From assembly GCF_900046475.1 (NCBI RefSeq), contig NZ_FCOU01000007.1, positions 1-64,000 on the forward strand: a stretch of 64,000 nt of DNA. Reading direction: 5' to 3'. The notes below the pieces were generated by a model that saw nothing but the letters and a program-made list of their open reading frames with translations, made no database searches and was not told the DNA's origin. The first letter of the stretch is position 1. Each line of letters begins with the position of its first letter. This stretch comes from Collinsella ihumii (GTDB lineage: Bacteria; Actinomycetota; Coriobacteriia; Coriobacteriales; Coriobacteriaceae). The position numbers and the translations under genes were made by a program. Positions 33,538 to 60,070 of this stretch are shown here, piece by piece.

Positions 33538-33835
33538 GGTCGTATCCTCTCTGTGCGATACACAACGTGCACCCGGCGACACAGGCGAATGCGCGCCGAG
33601 TTTTGCTGCGCTTAACATACCACGTGGGGGCATCATTGCAACCCTTGAGCGAGTGATTTACATACCGTTCGCCGAGTCAACTTCGGTTGACTGAAGAAAG
33701 CGCCGATCGATTGCTTTCGCACCTTACGGTCCGTGCCGGGCACCTGCGCGCTCAGGCTGCATCGGCGCAGCCCAACGGCGCCGTCCTCCCTCCATTGCGG
33801 TTGAGGGGTCCCCGGGTGCCGCCCTCCCGGGGAAA
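33538..33835. other. intergenic region left of the inverted-repeat element
   Basis: No gene is seen. It includes a UUCG-loop hairpin agtcaac/gttgact at 33675-33692 and a dispersed repeat copy at 33695-33720. Confidence 0.5.
33695..33720 (+). repeat. copy of dispersed gcgccgatc repeat
   Basis: gaaagcgccgatcgattgct plus ttcgc. Here the ends form a perfect short stem gaaagc / gctttc. Confidence 0.55.
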
Positions 33836-34042
33836 GTGGCTAGAAATTTCGATTCTGCTGTAGACCAGCTCGGATAAGGACGTCCGCCTTGACCGTAATG
33901 TCGGTATCGACCGCCTACGATACCGTCGCCATGGTCTCAGGCGCCTCGAATACGGCCTCGACAGGGGGATGCGCGGCGTCGACAGCGGGTTTCGGGCCCG
34001 ATTGAGCGGTGCCGCTACAGCAAAATAGAAATTTCTAGCCAC
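33836..34042. repeat. 207-bp element with 28-bp terminal inverted repeats
   Basis: The ends gtggctagaaatttc... (33836-33863) and ...gaaatttctagccac (34015-34042) are inverted copies with 26 of 28 bases matching. Inside, cggtatcg and cgataccg (33902-33925) form a perfect 8-bp hairpin. No coding frame fits. It may be a MITE-like non-autonomous element or a structured RNA; no target-site duplication is obvious in the flanks. Confidence 0.7.
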
Positions 34043-34153
34043 ATTCGTCCGGAAGAGGGGCGCGGCCGGGGCAGCACGAGGGCGGAGACTGCGGGCGCCC
34101 GGCGCGGTTTTGCGTCCGTGAAGGGCGAGGAGCGCCCCTTCTCCAGCTTTTTT

Positions 34154-38564: not shown

Positions 38565-38637
38565 CTGAAATTCTAGGGACAGTCCCTGAAATTTCACCAT
38601 CGGAATGAAATTTCAGGGACTGTCCCTAGAATTTCAG
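38565..38637. repeat. perfect 32-bp inverted repeat between convergent hspR and lysR genes
   Basis: Arms 38565-38596 and 38606-38637 are exact reverse complements around the 9-nt loop ccatcggaa. Each arm contains its own dyad, agggacagtccct. The right arm ends on the base before the LysR stop codon. There is no T run, but the position between convergent genes would suit a two-way terminator. Confidence 0.9.
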
Positions 38638-46418: not shown

Positions 46419-46454
46419 GGGCCGGTACGTTTTGGGATGGAAACGTACCGGCCC
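46419..46454 (+). terminator. probable terminator after the cupin gene
   Basis: Perfect 14-bp stem gggccggtacgttt / aaacgtaccggccc with an 8-nt loop. There is no T run, so efficiency is uncertain. Confidence 0.6.
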
Positions 46455-46505
46455 TGCTGCGAGCATTGTCTGCTACGATGGGCGCGTCCGATCAGGAGGT
46501 GTGCC

Positions 46506-46790
46506 GTGGACCATTCCGAAACTGAGCACTACAAGTTCTTCAACCATGCGTCGTGCGAGTTCTACCCGTGCCACGACATGCCTGCGGAGCAGCTCAACTG
46601 CCTGTTCTGCTATTGCCCGCTGTACTGCTTGGGAGATACCTGCGGCGGCAATTTCCGCTACGTGGGCGAGCACGGAGACATCAAGGACTGCTCGGCCTGC
46701 ACCGTGCCCCATCGCGTGGAGAACTTCGATTACATCATGCGCCAGTACCAGCGCGTGAAGGATATCGCCGCCCGCCGCGAAGGCGCGTGA
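46506..46790 (+). CDS. cysteine-rich small domain protein
   Basis: 94 aa with nine Cys, matching the Cys-rich small domain family (PF04071 type): YKFFNHASCEFYPCHDM, LNCLFCYCPLYCLGDTC and DCSACTVPH in order. The ligand is presumably a metal. In other genomes relatives lie near cobalamin genes; none are seen here. The start is GTG 46506, set by caggaggtgtgcc upstream; the longer reading from 46437 runs through the preceding hairpin and is unlikely. Confidence 0.9.
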   Translation: MDHSETEHYKFFNHASCEFYPCHDMPAEQLNCLFCYCPLYCLGDTCGGNFRYVGEHGDIKDCSACTVPHRVENFDYIMRQYQRVKDIAARREGA

Positions 46791-46851
46791 TCGGCGTTTC
46801 ACAAGGGGGTGGTTCCCTCTTATTCCACCTGCTTTCCAGACGTGTTCCTAT

Positions 46852-46893
46852 CGCCGGCAAAAATCGCGCGCTCAGCGATTTGCCGGCGTTTTT
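46852..46893 (+). terminator. intrinsic terminator
   Basis: cgccggcaaaaatcgc / gcgatttgccggcg followed by ttttt. It ends the Cys-rich small-domain gene. Confidence 0.85.
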
Positions 46894-46983
46894 CTTTGCC
46901 ATGTTGCTATGGGCGGCAATAAGAACCATGAGCCTGCCGACCGCAGAATATGGAGCCACAACGCACGGGAGGAGGGTCGAACC

Positions 46984-49656
46984 ATGAAGAGGATGACCAC
47001 TTCAAAGCCCCTTGTCATGTTGCTGACCGTTGCGTTGATTGCGGTGTTCATGATCCCCTGTCCGGTGCGCGCGGATGAGTCCGCGGCCGACGGGGTCGCT
47101 TCCCCGGGGCAAACGGAATCCGTGCTGCAGCCTGAGCACGTCGTCGATGAGGCGGACGTGATGGAGGGCAGCGGGCCTGCCGACGCGGCAGGAGCATCCG
47201 ATATCGTTGGCGACGAGGAGGTCGTCGAGGCGGGTCTGGCGTCTGATCAGGTCGTGCAGGCGCAAGAGACGCAGCCCGCTGCGCAGACTTCCCCGACCGC
47301 GATAACGGTGCGGCCCGTATCTCCCGACAGCCTGACGTCGGTGGGGGATGCGGTGTACTGCCTGCCGGCAGACGGTGCCGGCGCAACCGTCGATTTGCCC
47401 GCAGTGTCGGTTGAGCCCGAAGGGGCCTCGGACGCCGTGACGTGGACATCGTCCGATGAGACGGTAGCCTCGGTCTCCAATGGCCTTGTTTTGCATGCTC
47501 CGGGCATGGCGGTGCTGACCGCGACCTCGGAGCTGGACGGGACGGTGAGTGCGCATGCGCGCATCTACGTCGTGGACGGTTCCCCGACGACCGTCGATGT
47601 CGACGGCTCGGGATGGCTGGTCGAGTCGTTTGACGGCCTCGATCTCGCGGCAGAGGTGCAGGCGCTCGACCAGGCCCTCACCGAGGCGCTCGGCGAGGGC
47701 GAGACGATCCAATTCGTCGGCACCCTCAGCTACAGCGTTCCGACCGATGAGGGGGCCGCTAGCTCTGGCCCCGCCGGCGCGGACCTGTATTTTCCCGTGC
47801 CCGATGGAGCGACGGGCGATGCGATGACCATCATGTTCTATCCCGATGGCGGGACGGGCATCGAGGTTGCGGCGCCCCTGTCGTTCGACGAGGCGGGCCT
47901 TCTGCTCGGCGCACACGTCGAGATTGCCTTCGACGGGGACGGGTTCACGTTGAACGGGGTGCCCGCCGCGACGGTGTGCGGGCAGTACGAAGTTATCGGA
48001 AGCGTCGACGCCAAGGTTCTGCTCGCGGAGGAGCTGGATGCCGCCCGCGCCGAGCTTGCCGAGCTGGCTGTACTCGACGACGCGGAGCTGGGCGAGGCGG
48101 CCGATGGGACGCGCTACGTGACGCGCGATCAGTTCGACCAGATATCGAATCTGCTCGACGCCATCGAGGCGCAGCTGAAGATCCGTGCGAGCGAAGAAGA
48201 CGTCGAGGTGTTTCGTCAGCAGGTCAGAGAGCTCCGTCACGATGTGGCCGAGATGCCGATGACCGTCCAGGTCGACCGCGGGGCGCTGGAAGAGGAGCTC
48301 GCGGCGGCCGACGCCGTGCGTGCCGAGGTGACGGTTTCCGAGCACGGGCGCGACGTGCTTCACGGCGGCACATGGGCAGCGTCTGCCGATGCGGCCGCAT
48401 TTGACGCGGCGATCGCGGATGCGCGCGCCGTATATGGTGCCGGGGACGCGACGAGCGATGAGATCGCGGCGGCGCGCGACGCGCTGGCCGAGGCGCAGCG
48501 TGTGTTCGAGGCCGCCTGCAGCGTGGCGGAGGTGTCTCTCGAGGCGCTCGAGAGCGAGCTCGATGCCGCCGCCAAGGTGGATGACGGCGTCGTGACCGTG
48601 GCACAGGCGCTCGATGCGGCGCCCGGCGCGCGCTGGGTGACGCAGGAGGCGGCGAATTCGCTGGCTGCAGCCGTGGACGCGGCGAAAGCCGTTGCGGCCA
48701 AGGAGCTTTCCGCGCTGACGCAGGATGCAGTCGACGCGGCGACCTCCAAGCTCATGAGGGCGAATGCGGGCTATCGGGAGTCCATCGCGACAAAGCCCGC
48801 GATCGAGGACATCAAGATTGAGCGCGCGGAGGCGAATGTCGGGCGCGACATTGTCCACATGCTCCCGGGCAGCCCCCTTGCGCTCAAGCCGGTGTTCACT
48901 CCCGCCGAGTCTGCAGTGGCGGTGACGTGGTCCTCCTCCAACACCTCCGTCGCGACGGTTGACGCTGACGGCAAGGTCACGGCGGTGGGTGACGGCGCGG
49001 CGACCATCACCGCGACAACGCGCGCGTTCGATGGCGTGGAGAGCAAGACGGCCGTGTTCACGGTCGTTCCGATCGGCTGCGGGGCCCGGTGGACCTACGA
49101 GAACACGGCCGCGGGCATCGTCGTCGAGGGCGTTCCCTCCGGAGTCGACGTGACGGCAGATGTCGTGACGGGGTCCCAGGGGTTCCCGGTCGGAAAGCTT
49201 GGTCGCGATGATCGCGCTGTCGCCGGCGTGTTCGTAACGCTCGCAACGGGGTCCGAGCACACCGTGGTCGGCATCCCGATCGAGGGCATGAGCGCCCGTA
49301 TCCCTCTTGGGACCGATGCGTATGACGGCAAGAAAGTCGAAGCGACGCTGTACGGAGATGACGGTTACACCTACACGTATACGGCGACGGCAAGCGGCGG
49401 AACGATCTATCTGACGATTCCCGCCGGAGGCTACGTGGAGACCATCGCGCGTGCCGCCCTGCTGGCGGAAACGCCCGATAAGCAGGGCGATCCCGCCAAG
49501 CCCTCCGATGAGGCGAAGCCGTCTGACGATGACGTGCGCGAGCGCCTCGCCCAGACGGGTGACGAATCGGTGGCGGCGATAGCCGCTCTCGGCGGCGCCG
49601 GTGCTCTGGCAGCGGTGTCCGGTATCGTCTTGATTCGAAGGAGGAAGATCTCGTAA
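46984..49656 (+). CDS. cell-wall-anchored surface protein with Ig-like and helical repeat domains
   Basis: 890 aa. A signal peptide ends near residue 30 (CPVRA). An acidic region follows, then a Big2-like domain (about 95-195; AVTWTSSDETVASVSNGLV), a beta-rich region (200-335), alpha-helical FIVAR-like modules (about 420-600; RALEEELAAADAV-like starts at DRGALEEELAAAD and SLEALESELDAA), and a second Big2 domain (about 605-697; VTWSSSNTSVATVDADGKV). The C-terminus has LAQTG (855-859), a hydrophobic helix and RRRKIS, a sortase sorting signal with Ala in place of Pro. It is a likely adhesin or matrix-binding protein; the ligand is unknown. No sortase is nearby. Confidence 0.9.
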   Translation: MKRMTTSKPLVMLLTVALIAVFMIPCPVRADESAADGVASPGQTESVLQPEHVVDEADVMEGSGPADAAGASDIVGDEEVVEAGLASDQVVQAQETQPAAQTSPTAITVRPVSPDSLTSVGDAVYCLPADGAGATVDLPAVSVEPEGASDAVTWTSSDETVASVSNGLVLHAPGMAVLTATSELDGTVSAHARIYVVDGSPTTVDVDGSGWLVESFDGLDLAAEVQALDQALTEALGEGETIQFVGTLSYSVPTDEGAASSGPAGADLYFPVPDGATGDAMTIMFYPDGGTGIEVAAPLSFDEAGLLLGAHVEIAFDGDGFTLNGVPAATVCGQYEVIGSVDAKVLLAEELDAARAELAELAVLDDAELGEAADGTRYVTRDQFDQISNLLDAIEAQLKIRASEEDVEVFRQQVRELRHDVAEMPMTVQVDRGALEEELAAADAVRAEVTVSEHGRDVLHGGTWAASADAAAFDAAIADARAVYGAGDATSDEIAAARDALAEAQRVFEAACSVAEVSLEALESELDAAAKVDDGVVTVAQALDAAPGARWVTQEAANSLAAAVDAAKAVAAKELSALTQDAVDAATSKLMRANAGYRESIATKPAIEDIKIERAEANVGRDIVHMLPGSPLALKPVFTPAESAVAVTWSSSNTSVATVDADGKVTAVGDGAATITATTRAFDGVESKTAVFTVVPIGCGARWTYENTAAGIVVEGVPSGVDVTADVVTGSQGFPVGKLGRDDRAVAGVFVTLATGSEHTVVGIPIEGMSARIPLGTDAYDGKKVEATLYGDDGYTYTYTATASGGTIYLTIPAGGYVETIARAALLAETPDKQGDPAKPSDEAKPSDDDVRERLAQTGDESVAAIAALGGAGALAAVSGIVLIRRRKIS

Positions 49657-49712
49657 GCGGCTCAAGGACCAGTGAGGCTGTACGTTTCGGTCATCAGCGA
49701 GATCACGGGACT

Positions 49713-49818
49713 ACCCGCTAACGGTGCCCAGTAACTGTACCCAGAACTGAGAGAGAGGGCCTTCCAAGGGGCCCTCTCTCTCAGTTCTGGGTACAGTTAC
49801 TGGGCCCTATGAGCGGGT
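49713..49818. repeat. long hairpin repeat, copy 1
   Basis: A perfect 36-bp inner stem (49726-49761 with 49770-49805; motif gtaactgtacccagaactga). A partly decayed outer stem acccgct / agcgggt brings the element to 106 bp. Same family as 57105-57212; substitutions between copies are compensatory in the stem. It lies just after the surface-protein gene. The 49657-49937 gap has nothing else recognisable. Confidence 0.92.
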
Positions 49819-49937
49819 GGCCTGGTAGAGGCGGTGGCCGAGCCTTGCTCGAGGGGCCTCGCTTCACGATGCGCTGCGATCGCCGCCTCGCCCTGCGGGA
49901 CTTGGATGCCTTTATGTAGCGTTTCCCTTGGCGGATC

Positions 49938-51008
49938 TTAGTAGGAGATGGCGCTCGGCGAGAAGTCCTCTGCGACGGCTATCGCGATGTCCGCCGCCGC
50001 GCGGATGTCTTGCGGCGCGCAGATGGAGGCGCCTGCGTGGATGTAGCGGCAGGGGACGCCGGCGACCACGCAGGGGATATCGAGCTGATGGATGACGCCT
50101 CCGTTGGTTCCGCCGCCGGTGCGCACGGAGGTCTGCGCGGGCAGGCCGCGGGACTGGGCGACTCTGAGCACATATCGCTGAAAACGCGGATGCGTGATCA
50201 TGCAGCGATCGAAGTAGCGGAACATCGGTCCTTTTCGCAACGCGGTCTGGATCTCGTCGGCGGGCGTGAACGTGTCGTCTGCCGGGCATCCTTCAAACAC
50301 GAACGCGGCAGCGGGCTCGATTGCGCGCACGGCGGCGCCGATGCCCCGCTCGCCCATCTCTTCCTGCGCCGAGATGCAGCCGATGACGTTGACCGGCAGG
50401 TCGTCGCGCTGCGCGAGCTCTCGCAGCGCGAGCAGCAGGGCGCACACGCCCGCGCGGCAATCGAAGGCCTTGCCAATCGCGATGTCGCGCTGCTCGTCAT
50501 ATGAAAACGTCGTTGCCGCCACGAACGGCTCGCCGATGCGCACGCCGAAACGCTCCAAGGCGTCTTGCTTCGAGGTCGCGCCGACGTCGAGCGTAAGCGG
50601 CGCCTTGCCGTCGGCGCGCTCGGTGGCGGTCCAGAAGTGCGGCGGCTTGACGCCGACGACGCCGCGGATCCAGGCGCCGGCGCCCGTGCGCACGAAGACG
50701 TCCTGGCCGGCGAGCGTCCCGGGGGCGATATGGCCCAGCTCGACGAAATTCATCGTGCCGCCTGCATGGATCGCTTGCACCATGCCGCCGACTTCGTCTC
50801 CATGGGCGTCGAACAGCAGCGTCGGCTTGTCCGCATCGACGGTATGCGGCGTGATGATGACGTCAAGCAGGCTGTTGACCTCGACGTTCGCCCAGTCGGC
50901 GCAGAACGCGCGCACGATATCGACCACCTCGTCCTCAAAGCCCGAGGGGGCTTTGGCGTTCGAGAGGCGGGCGAGCAGGTCGATCAGTTCGGCATCGTCG
51001 GCATGCAT
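49938..51008 (-). CDS. M42-family metallo-aminopeptidase
   Basis: A cytoplasmic di-zinc peptidase of 356 aa (glutamyl aminopeptidase/TET-like). FDAHGDEVGGMV carries metal His and Asp, KAFDCRAGVCALL the bridging Asp, ISAQEEMGERG the catalytic Glu pair, and RTGGGTNGGVIH with RYIHAGASI the last ligands. ggaaaggacctgcc precedes ATG 51008. It is a single-gene unit. Confidence 0.92.
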   Translation of the reverse strand: MHADDAELIDLLARLSNAKAPSGFEDEVVDIVRAFCADWANVEVNSLLDVIITPHTVDADKPTLLFDAHGDEVGGMVQAIHAGGTMNFVELGHIAPGTLAGQDVFVRTGAGAWIRGVVGVKPPHFWTATERADGKAPLTLDVGATSKQDALERFGVRIGEPFVAATTFSYDEQRDIAIGKAFDCRAGVCALLLALRELAQRDDLPVNVIGCISAQEEMGERGIGAAVRAIEPAAAFVFEGCPADDTFTPADEIQTALRKGPMFRYFDRCMITHPRFQRYVLRVAQSRGLPAQTSVRTGGGTNGGVIHQLDIPCVVAGVPCRYIHAGASICAPQDIRAAADIAIAVAEDFSPSAISY

Positions 51009-56179: not shown

Positions 56180-56740
56180 ATGCATCGGACATCAACATGG
56201 GGCTCCATGAGGATCCATGTCGCCTTGGCGGCCGCGTTCGCATTCGCCGCTCTTTCCCTGAGCGGCTGCGGATCCGTGCAGAAGCGCGCGACGGGGTCTG
56301 CGTCTGAAGCGCCGCTGCCGGCATCGCGGCATGCGGCGTCTGCAGCCGGCGATAACGAGCGGACGGGCGCAGTGAGTGAGGAAGGGGATCAGGCGGTGCA
56401 GAGCATCACGCTTACCATCAACGGGACGGCGTATACGGCGACGTTGGAAGACACCGAGGCGGCGCGTGCGCTCGCGGAGCGGCTGCCGCTGTCGCTTTCG
56501 ATGTCGGAGCTGAACGGCAACGAGAAGTACTGCTACCTCGATGAGGACCTGCCCACGAGTTCTTCTCGTCCGGGCACCATCCAAGTGGGCGATATCATGC
56601 TGTTCGGCAGCGACTGCCTCGTCCTGTTCTACGAGACGTTCTCGAGCAGCTACAGCTATACACGGATCGGTCGCATCGACGACCCGTCAGGCTTGGCGCA
56701 GGTGGTCGGCAGCGGTTCCGTCACCGTGGCGTGGGAGTAG
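56180..56740 (+). CDS. lipoprotein with cyclophilin-like fold
   Basis: 186 aa. A signal peptide with lipobox LSLSGC (about C35) and a Ser/Ala linker lead to a cyclophilin-like domain from about residue 75 (SITLTINGTAYTATLEDTEA; LPLSLSMSELNGNEKYCYL; GTIQVGDIMLFGSDCLVLFY). These solitary domains are common in gut bacteria and are often encoded beside flavodoxins and aldo/keto reductases. gagaggaggttgcgtct precedes ATG 56180. Confidence 0.87.
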   Translation: MHRTSTWGSMRIHVALAAAFAFAALSLSGCGSVQKRATGSASEAPLPASRHAASAAGDNERTGAVSEEGDQAVQSITLTINGTAYTATLEDTEAARALAERLPLSLSMSELNGNEKYCYLDEDLPTSSSRPGTIQVGDIMLFGSDCLVLFYETFSSSYSYTRIGRIDDPSGLAQVVGSGSVTVAWE

Positions 56741-56797
56741 GGGCGGCATTCGAGACACAGCTCGAGACGCTGGCCAAAGGAGTCTCCGGGTACGACG

Positions 56798-56980
56798 GTG
56801 GGCACGAGCGTATGCGGCGCCCTGCCCTGCCTGGCTCTCGGCGTGCTGTTCACCGTCTTCCGCCTGCGTTGCGCTCATGCGGGCGAGTGCATCGGCTGCG
56901 GTCATTGCGACAGCCGCTGCCCGTTCGGGGTGGCCCAGTCCGAGCGCATGGGAATCATCGCGGATCACTTCGGCCTGTAG
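56798..56980 (+). pseudogene. remnant of an aldo/keto reductase C-terminus with [4Fe-4S] motif
   Basis: A 60-codon frame ends with AGECIGCGHCDSRCPFGVAQ and SERMGIIADHFGL, which looks like the ferredoxin-type tail of the [4Fe-4S] aldo/keto reductases. The body of the enzyme is absent: upstream sequence to the lipoprotein stop has no matching frame. There is no good ribosome site. Best read as the last fragment of a deleted gene; a short translated ferredoxin-like peptide cannot be excluded. Confidence 0.6.
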
Positions 56981-57104
56981 CTTATTACCCTTCGAAGGGG
57001 GCTGGCCGGTTTAGTGCACATCCGGCATGTCGTGCCGGGCGCGCGATCGCCGCGCATCGTGAAACGAGGTCCTGCGGAAAGTTCGACCACCGCCTCTACC
57101 AGGT

Positions 57105-57212
57105 TACCCACTAAACGGGCCCCGTAACTGTACCCCGAACTGCGGGAGAGGGCCCCTTGAGAGGCCCTCTCCCGCAGTTCGGGGTACAGTTACGGGGCCC
57201 GTTTAGTGGGTA
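57105..57212. repeat. long hairpin repeat, copy 2: perfect 50-bp stem
   Basis: Arms 57105-57154 and 57163-57212 are exact reverse complements over 50 bp, with the 8-nt loop ccttgaga. It contains the family core gtaactgtaccccgaactgc. It is related to 49713-49818 and lies between the gene remnant and the clpB promoter. No T run follows. Confidence 0.95.
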
Positions 57213-57322
57213 GTCCCGTTGTTCTACCGATGGCCAGGAGTGCATCGGGACATGCATCAGCGTTTCCTTAACGGAGGCTCATGCGAAATGCTTTTGTCTC
57301 TGTCCATTGGTAGTTGCGCACT

Positions 57323-57362
57323 AAGAAAATCTTATGTATGTAGACTTAGATTTCTGTATAGA
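57323..57362 (+). promoter_or_regulatory. heat-shock regulatory element upstream of clpB
   Basis: aagaaaatcttat then gacttagattt then ctgtata: AAATCT-N15-AGATTT plus TGTATA, aligned without gaps to the dnaK element at 34154. It is about 85 bp before the clpB ATG. Confidence 0.78.
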
Positions 57363-57445
57363 GCGTCGCAAAAGCGGTAACAATACCTCTCGAACAGATG
57401 AATGCCGCCCCGCAGGGCGGCAACACCCCAAGAGAGGTGAGGCAT

Positions 57446-60070
<2,625 letters not shown>

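Follow-up and report, generated by a model that had tools for sequence, protein, structure and literature searches.

A perfect hairpin and a related copy

The window, i.e. the whole stretch of 64,000 nucleotides of Collinsella ihumii DNA analysed here, holds two copies of a long palindromic element (Table 1). At 57105-57212 the sequence-only reading had described a perfect 50-bp palindrome with an 8-nt loop, and all 50 of the 50 arm positions are indeed paired around a loop of that length; by repeat finding the inverted repeat can be extended to 53-nt arms (98%, a 2-nt gap and one mismatch). These coordinates hold for the hairpin but not for the extent of the element, since homology with other copies spans approximately 57034 to 57259 and the conserved flanks thus enlarge it. 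When folded as single-stranded DNA the 226-nt element reached -91.9 kcal/mol, compared to a mean of -41.0 kcal/mol for 200 shuffles (z -15.65).

Table 1. Features of the two copies in the window.
Feature	Position	Strand	Basis
Left flank (...GCATCGTGAAACGAGG...GACCACCGCCTCTACCAGG), outside the hairpin	57034..57104	+	Approximately whole length common to copies C9 and C7a; inner part common to several others
Left arm	57105..57154	+	Sequence; 50/50 pairing with right arm
Left-arm unit A	57105-57117	+	Sequence; tandem-unit pattern
Left-arm unit B	57118-57130	+	Sequence; tandem-unit pattern
Left-arm unit C	57131-57142	+	Sequence; tandem-unit pattern
Inner stem of left arm	57143-57154	+	Sequence
8-nt loop	57155..57162	+	Sequence; DNA fold
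Right arm: inner stem, then C', B', A' in reverse order	57163..57212	+	Sequence; pairing
Right flank (GTCCCGTTGTTCTACCGATGGCC...GCATCGGGACATGCATCA)	57213..57259	+	Common to several well-matched copies
Copy C7a	49713..49818	-	Core 49726-49805 perfect over 36 bp; mismatches in the outer 14 pairs
Left flank of C7a	49819..49887	-	Similarity search matches 49705-49887 on - strand
Start of right flank of C7a	49705..49712	-	Comparison with other copies

The arms are composed of 12-13-nt units, for which TACCCGCTAACAG, GGCCCAGTAACTG and TACCCAGAACTG are the types; after these comes an inner stem, e.g. AGAGAGAGGGCC. With up to two mismatches allowed, 29 of the 31 matches to the tandem-unit pattern fell within the palindrome family, and the reversed control gave 6. 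Read by eye, several divergent copies have three units in the left arm and two in the right; in the majority of well-matched copies there are three in each arm. Many copies have a left flank ending in CTACCAGG; for the right flank the types RTCCCGTGG...CCGATGGCC and GTGTTCNACAC are seen. Tandem units inside each arm could be taken as an array of protein-binding sites (TACCC...AAC units) with the symmetry required by a dimeric protein, and palindromes with a similar core, ACCCAGAACYRGTTCTGGGT, occur in a genome of the same order (G221; 17 sites with at most two mismatches, some in 41-bp tandem arrays). However, the G221 arrays may be unrelated, a perfect dyad of 50 bp far exceeds the need of such binding sites, and the unit letters vary strongly between copies, and we therefore regard a binding-site array as very improbable.

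The second copy, C7a, had been noted as a related element with a perfect 36-bp stem, and the hairpin is as described: its five mismatches all fall in the outer 14 pairs, outside the perfect run. The paired letter differences between the two hairpins, quoted as cases in which both arms had changed together, are present as well. At 46437-49938 a gene for a Big_2-domain protein and the C7a palindrome sit between an M42 peptidase gene and a gene for a cysteine-rich protein. In three Collinsella genomes these two outer genes adjoin directly, with neither a Big_2 gene nor a palindrome between them. The M42 peptidase is closest to those of C. tanakaei ET10 and ET30 and of an uncultured Collinsella (79%).

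Other inverted repeats are found in the window. A separate perfect palindrome of 32 bp with a 9-nt loop lies at 38565-38637 and carries a GGGACAGTCCC motif, which is also found within 43- and 45-bp stems elsewhere (L086:6794-6881 and L094:2553-2644). An imperfect inverted repeat at 33825-34053 contains GGCTAGAAATTTC, and the related AAATTTCTAGCCACTTTCGCC is part of the C3b flank, with a less exact counterpart in that of C9.

A dispersed family found in one species

In the 2.84-Mb genome, blastn gave 10 loci with the hairpin as query, itself among them, and 12 with the flanked element. A covariance model built from 11 copies gave 30 matches, corresponding to 15 loci found on both strands, of which 11 were the training copies. 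The proposal of a dispersed family, made from two copies, is thus supported. The sequence-only reading had set it against the case of two copies only that are absent from relatives; there are 15 loci, yet the model found no match at E ≤ 0.01 in 42 other Collinsella genomes (strict filters, at most 82 candidates scored per genome). Blastn with the flanked element agreed, matching 1 of the 43 genomes of the genus.

A model search across the order (297 genomes, own and genus included) gave weak matches of 29-32 bits in three other genomes; with 11 candidates scored per genome this search was insensitive and recovered 11 of the 30 known matches in the own genome. One of the three is a plain hairpin beside an apparent tRNA (L165), and another looks coding (L166). 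The third (L167) comes from a set of palindromes that repeat in tandem every 41 bp and have a core resembling that of the element; it is a lead to a possible relative. The ACCCAGAACYRGTTCTGGGT core of G221 (L167, L191, L195 and L196) resembles unit TACCCAGAACTG of the long element. Exact-core scans of genome contigs and viral contigs, from which records near the own genome may be absent, gave no match, and neither did a distant blastn against phage and plasmid records. The element thus appears to form a species-restricted family of non-autonomous dispersed palindromes, approximately 110-230 bp long and present at 15 loci. From this dispersal we infer that the family is, or has been, mobile.

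The neighbours of the copies are ordinary, unrelated genes. According to simple ORF calls most of the 15 loci are intergenic (C5, C15 and C12b overlap a called frame, the start of which may be wrong), and the neighbouring genes are convergent at four loci, divergent at three and co-directional at eight, as would be expected from random placement. In copy C7c the outer stem alone remains, as after a deletion between the arms.

Sites corresponding to those of two copies were sought in congeners. The HD neighbour of the C11 site was present at 25 of the 29 congener ETF-alpha loci fetched; in 8 of these 25 the gap was read, and no such palindrome was seen, some gaps having other stem-loops and none being alignable base by base. 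A comparison at the PTS EIIA/HPr site of C12 was dropped, the congener matches being partial and mostly 41-61% identical. In one congener (G019; L136:459-548) a 45-bp palindrome with at most one mismatch and no loop lies beside an HD-domain gene.

A MITE, i.e. a derivative of an insertion sequence now lost that was moved in trans through its ends, would likewise present itself as scattered copies with unrelated neighbours and with conservation beyond the hairpin, the flanks here being of at least two subtypes. On the other hand, the flanked 226-nt element matched its own copies alone in the genome (E ≤ 0.001, a search that would miss short shared ends), phage and plasmid records gave no match, its ends differ from copy to copy, and no target-site duplication was recognised at the copies, with relatives too distant to offer an alignable empty site. 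A MITE origin is therefore possible but doubtful.

The two arms change together

A check for covariation had been proposed in the earlier reading, and it was run on 11 and on 14 copies; the arms match within a copy while the copies differ from each other. In the 11-copy alignment 82.4% of 546 cells were paired, compared to 34.8-47.2% when the partners were slid, and the covariation score was 0.172 compared to 0.028-0.081. The paired fraction, the covariation score and the number of cells changed on both sides were each reached in 0 of 500 shuffles, and the number of pairs changed on both sides in 9 of 500; the number of further pair types was unremarkable, being matched in 129 of 500.

Whole arms were also swapped among 14 copies, C7c being excluded because its core is missing. 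The summed within-copy arm difference was 92, and none of 20000 permuted sums fell below 101 (mean 132.6); the 2-nt insertion that shifts C5 and the left arm of C11, cut to 32 columns, weigh equally on the observed sum and the reassigned ones. The own partner arm was the nearest in 9 of the 14 copies, the exceptions being C10, C9b, C15, C11 and C3. Among the six copies with at most three differences, variation between copies is seen in 9 of the 31 outer core columns, and at each of these nine both arms of every copy have the same letter. One further outer column is mismatched, in C10 alone, and most mismatches of these six copies are found in five loop-proximal columns, outside the 31 counted. 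Since the copies share descent, some of the paired changes are inherited, and the figures are not counts of independent events on a tree. Taken together, the results suggest that one arm has repeatedly been rewritten from the other.

Copying between arms or selection for a hairpin

Selection on the hairpin and copying of one arm onto the other were the two alternatives offered in the sequence-only reading, and they proved to be the right pair. A hairpin kept by selection as an RNA element (a processing site, a messenger end or a small RNA) would be in line with the very stable fold and the covariation. However, no preference for wobble pairs was observed (18 G-U versus 29 C-A of 546 cells), and among eight copies 12 pairs occur in more than one Watson-Crick type, eight of them with a transversion swap that cannot pass through G-U. 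The region 56700-57500 gave neither a terminator-like nor a promoter-like site, and Rfam, searched with 10 of the 15 loci, gave a neighbouring tRNA alone above the gathering score, with microRNA and other rows below it. The gene orientations resembling random placement, and the failure to find the family in 42 congeners, also argue against an RNA function, and we consider it improbable. No host function is indicated.

The distribution of mismatches is informative as well. In six of the nine imperfect copies (C7a, C9, C1, C15, C12 and C11) the mismatches are patchy, judged from the longest perfect run compared to shuffles (p<0.05, uncorrected), and in C10, C3 and C9b they are not clustered; C5 was excluded because of gaps, C7b has no mismatch, and C3b, C11b, C12b and C7c fall outside the alignment. 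In C7a, C9, C1 and C12 the mismatches are outermost, in a part on which selection for pairing may act less strongly; C15 alone has the reverse arrangement. In the inner half of C15 the left arm is of a newer type (GAGAGAG) and the right arm of an older one (GAAGTG, GAGTGAG), with 24 perfect outer pairs, and this copy looks half converted. The right arms of C9 and C1 have kept an old outer unit, TACCCGGCAACGG, and have a further inner unit close to the left-arm unit, from which it departs in the first two letters and, in C1, in two more. In C12 the unit found on both arms resembles the old right-arm unit (as read by eye), and copying may therefore go in both directions. On balance, the evidence leans towards fold-back copying of one arm onto the other, which fits better than selection for an RNA hairpin.

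A REPIN family and a RAYT-like protein in the same genome

The earlier reading likened the element to REP-type palindromes moved by a transposase acting on hairpins, and stated that no transposase was present. As to the Y1 family, this is correct for contig C7, where no match was found, but not for the rest of the genome, which has two. The search for a REP-type (Y1) transposase that it proposed gave a RAYT-like Y1 protein of 261 aa at C9:242440-242778 (PF01797, 34.7 bits with a cut-off of 23). The other match, at C3:227149-227433 (L050:5150-5434), looks like a truncated IS200-type frame with the start seemingly missing. Near this frame are inverted repeats of approximately 370 nt, 90-96% alike and approximately 2.2 kb apart (L050:5557-8442).

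On both sides the RAYT-like gene is flanked by tandem REP repeats of the GCAAATTGGGGACGTACC type (C9:242032-242817, equal to L051:4533-5318 on the minus strand). The REP pattern GCAWATNGGGGACGTACC occurs with up to two mismatches at 107 places in the genome and in the reversed control at none. Twenty inverted REP pairs were picked from the listed places, and 19 of them were used as REPIN doublets with 31-nt arms, L219 being dropped for its longer spacer. The arms of the 19 doublets differed in 17 of 589 cells, compared to a permuted mean of 72.6 (0 of 20000 reached 17), 10 columns vary between copies, and nine doublets are perfect. With all 20 pairs and some outside flank the value was 96, compared to a mean of 175.7 (0 of 5000).

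These findings bear on whether the long element is itself REPIN-like, moved by a RAYT/Y1 transposase as a single-stranded hairpin, with the arms kept paired by selection for an intact hairpin in transposition. Both a RAYT-like protein and a REP family of 107 sites are present, the REPIN arms covary in the same manner, and compensatory changes on both sides of REPIN hairpins in Pseudomonas are reported to be common (PMC3116915). In addition, CTAC/GTAG strings are seen by eye at the feet of many copies of the long element: 8 of the 15 have CTACCAGG at their left foot, and 4 have CTAC beside the other arm when this is read in the direction of the hairpin. In REPs, GTAG lies 5' of the hairpin, however, and the tetramers of the long element face the other way. 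Moreover, its stem is longer than that of a REP, and the RAYT-like gene is flanked by the other palindrome family. None of the 15 loci lies near the RAYT-like gene (C9:242440) or the Y1 match on C3, and of the 100 of 107 REP places listed, those within 100 bp of a locus are at C1 and C9b alone, which is approximately what intergenic crowding would give by estimate. The own RAYT was set aside as mover of the long palindrome because the repeats flanking it differ. Movement as a REPIN is thus unlikely in our opinion, and the link to REP-type elements remains an analogy.

A model for the long palindrome and the apparent lack of SbcCD

The best explanation, and one that we hold to be probable, is a family of non-autonomous dispersed palindromes, the arms of which are kept alike by hairpin-templated copying. 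Folding back would take place while the DNA is replicated or repaired, or while it is single-stranded in transposition, and part of one arm would then be resynthesised with the other as template, a short repeat such as TACCC allowing the polymerase to return. In this way a single mutation could either be removed or end up in both arms, and the shorter arm could gain a 13-nt unit. New sites would likely be reached by means of a transposase that is lost or acts on hairpins.

The probable reason why long palindromes are tolerated is that this genus seems to be without the hairpin nuclease SbcCD. SbcCD cuts hairpins at long palindromes. With an SbcD profile none of the 43 genomes of the genus scored above the cut-off, compared to 8 of 14 controls (13 of 14 at a looser threshold). 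Weak matches were seen in two of the 43, the own genome (19.7 bits, a 292-aa frame) and G026; the former was judged by eye to be another metallophosphoesterase. Since SbcD is missing throughout the genus while the family is found in one species, its absence is at most a permissive factor. Other stems with at most one mismatch occur as well: 140 kb of the own genome (pieces chosen around these families) has stems of 43 and 45 bp, and among 350 kb of relatives there are stems of 45 and 31 bp from congeners and of 35 and 31 bp from Olsenella.

Going further, it may be proposed, tentatively and as a speculation we would not favour at present, that this is an apparently SbcCD-less lineage with self-perfecting palindromes, in which the arms of two unrelated dispersed families (up to 53 nt long and, for the REPINs, 31 nt) are rewritten by fold-back copying at such a rate that each palindrome evolves as a unit, with mutations passed on to both arms and with arm growth by 13-nt units taken from the partner.

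Paired changes in a hairpin are often taken as proof of selection on RNA. In this one genome two palindrome families exhibit strong paired change without a preference for wobble pairs, and the longer one is matched patch by patch; copying between arms may therefore mimic the signal of RNA selection. The imperfect, half-converted and perfect copies form a series that makes the question of copying testable, and the apparent absence of SbcCD is a concrete permissive factor to test.

Comparison with known palindromic elements

In searches of the open literature on Collinsella palindromes, small bacterial palindromes, REPIN/RAYT, and REP with template switching, the element was not described among the matches listed, and it is a new, apparently species-restricted form of small dispersed palindrome. 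It resembles REPs and REPINs with their RAYTs in being a dispersed hairpin with paired changes on both arms, and a REPIN family and a RAYT are present in the same genome. REPs are palindromes of 20-40 nt with a GTAG tag at one end (PMC3733652), whereas the present element is long, with a stem of up to 50 perfect pairs, is built from tandem units, and was found at 15 loci away from the RAYT. With ERIC, RUP, NEMIS/Correia, RPE and further MITE-like bacterial palindromes of approximately 100-170 bp (PMC2229807), it shares the dispersed palindromic units, but here no parent insertion sequence was recognised, and the arms are perfect or nearly so in several copies, the comparison with these families being one of description.

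Concerted arm evolution in long, perfect inverted repeats is also known from the coding palindromes of Nematomorpha mitochondria (PMC6649704), although those repeats lie within organelle genes and do not form a dispersed family. In yeast, the arms of inverted repeats are homogenised by template switching (PMC8604942). A parallel in mechanism is quasipalindrome correction, in which imperfect inverted repeats are perfected with the nascent strand as template; such template switching is known from E. coli (PMC7202029) and has been proposed for RNA stems (PMC8794818). In contrast to these cases, the copying suggested here is read from naturally occurring copies of a single bacterial element, which are dispersed and form a series that includes the gain of a unit.
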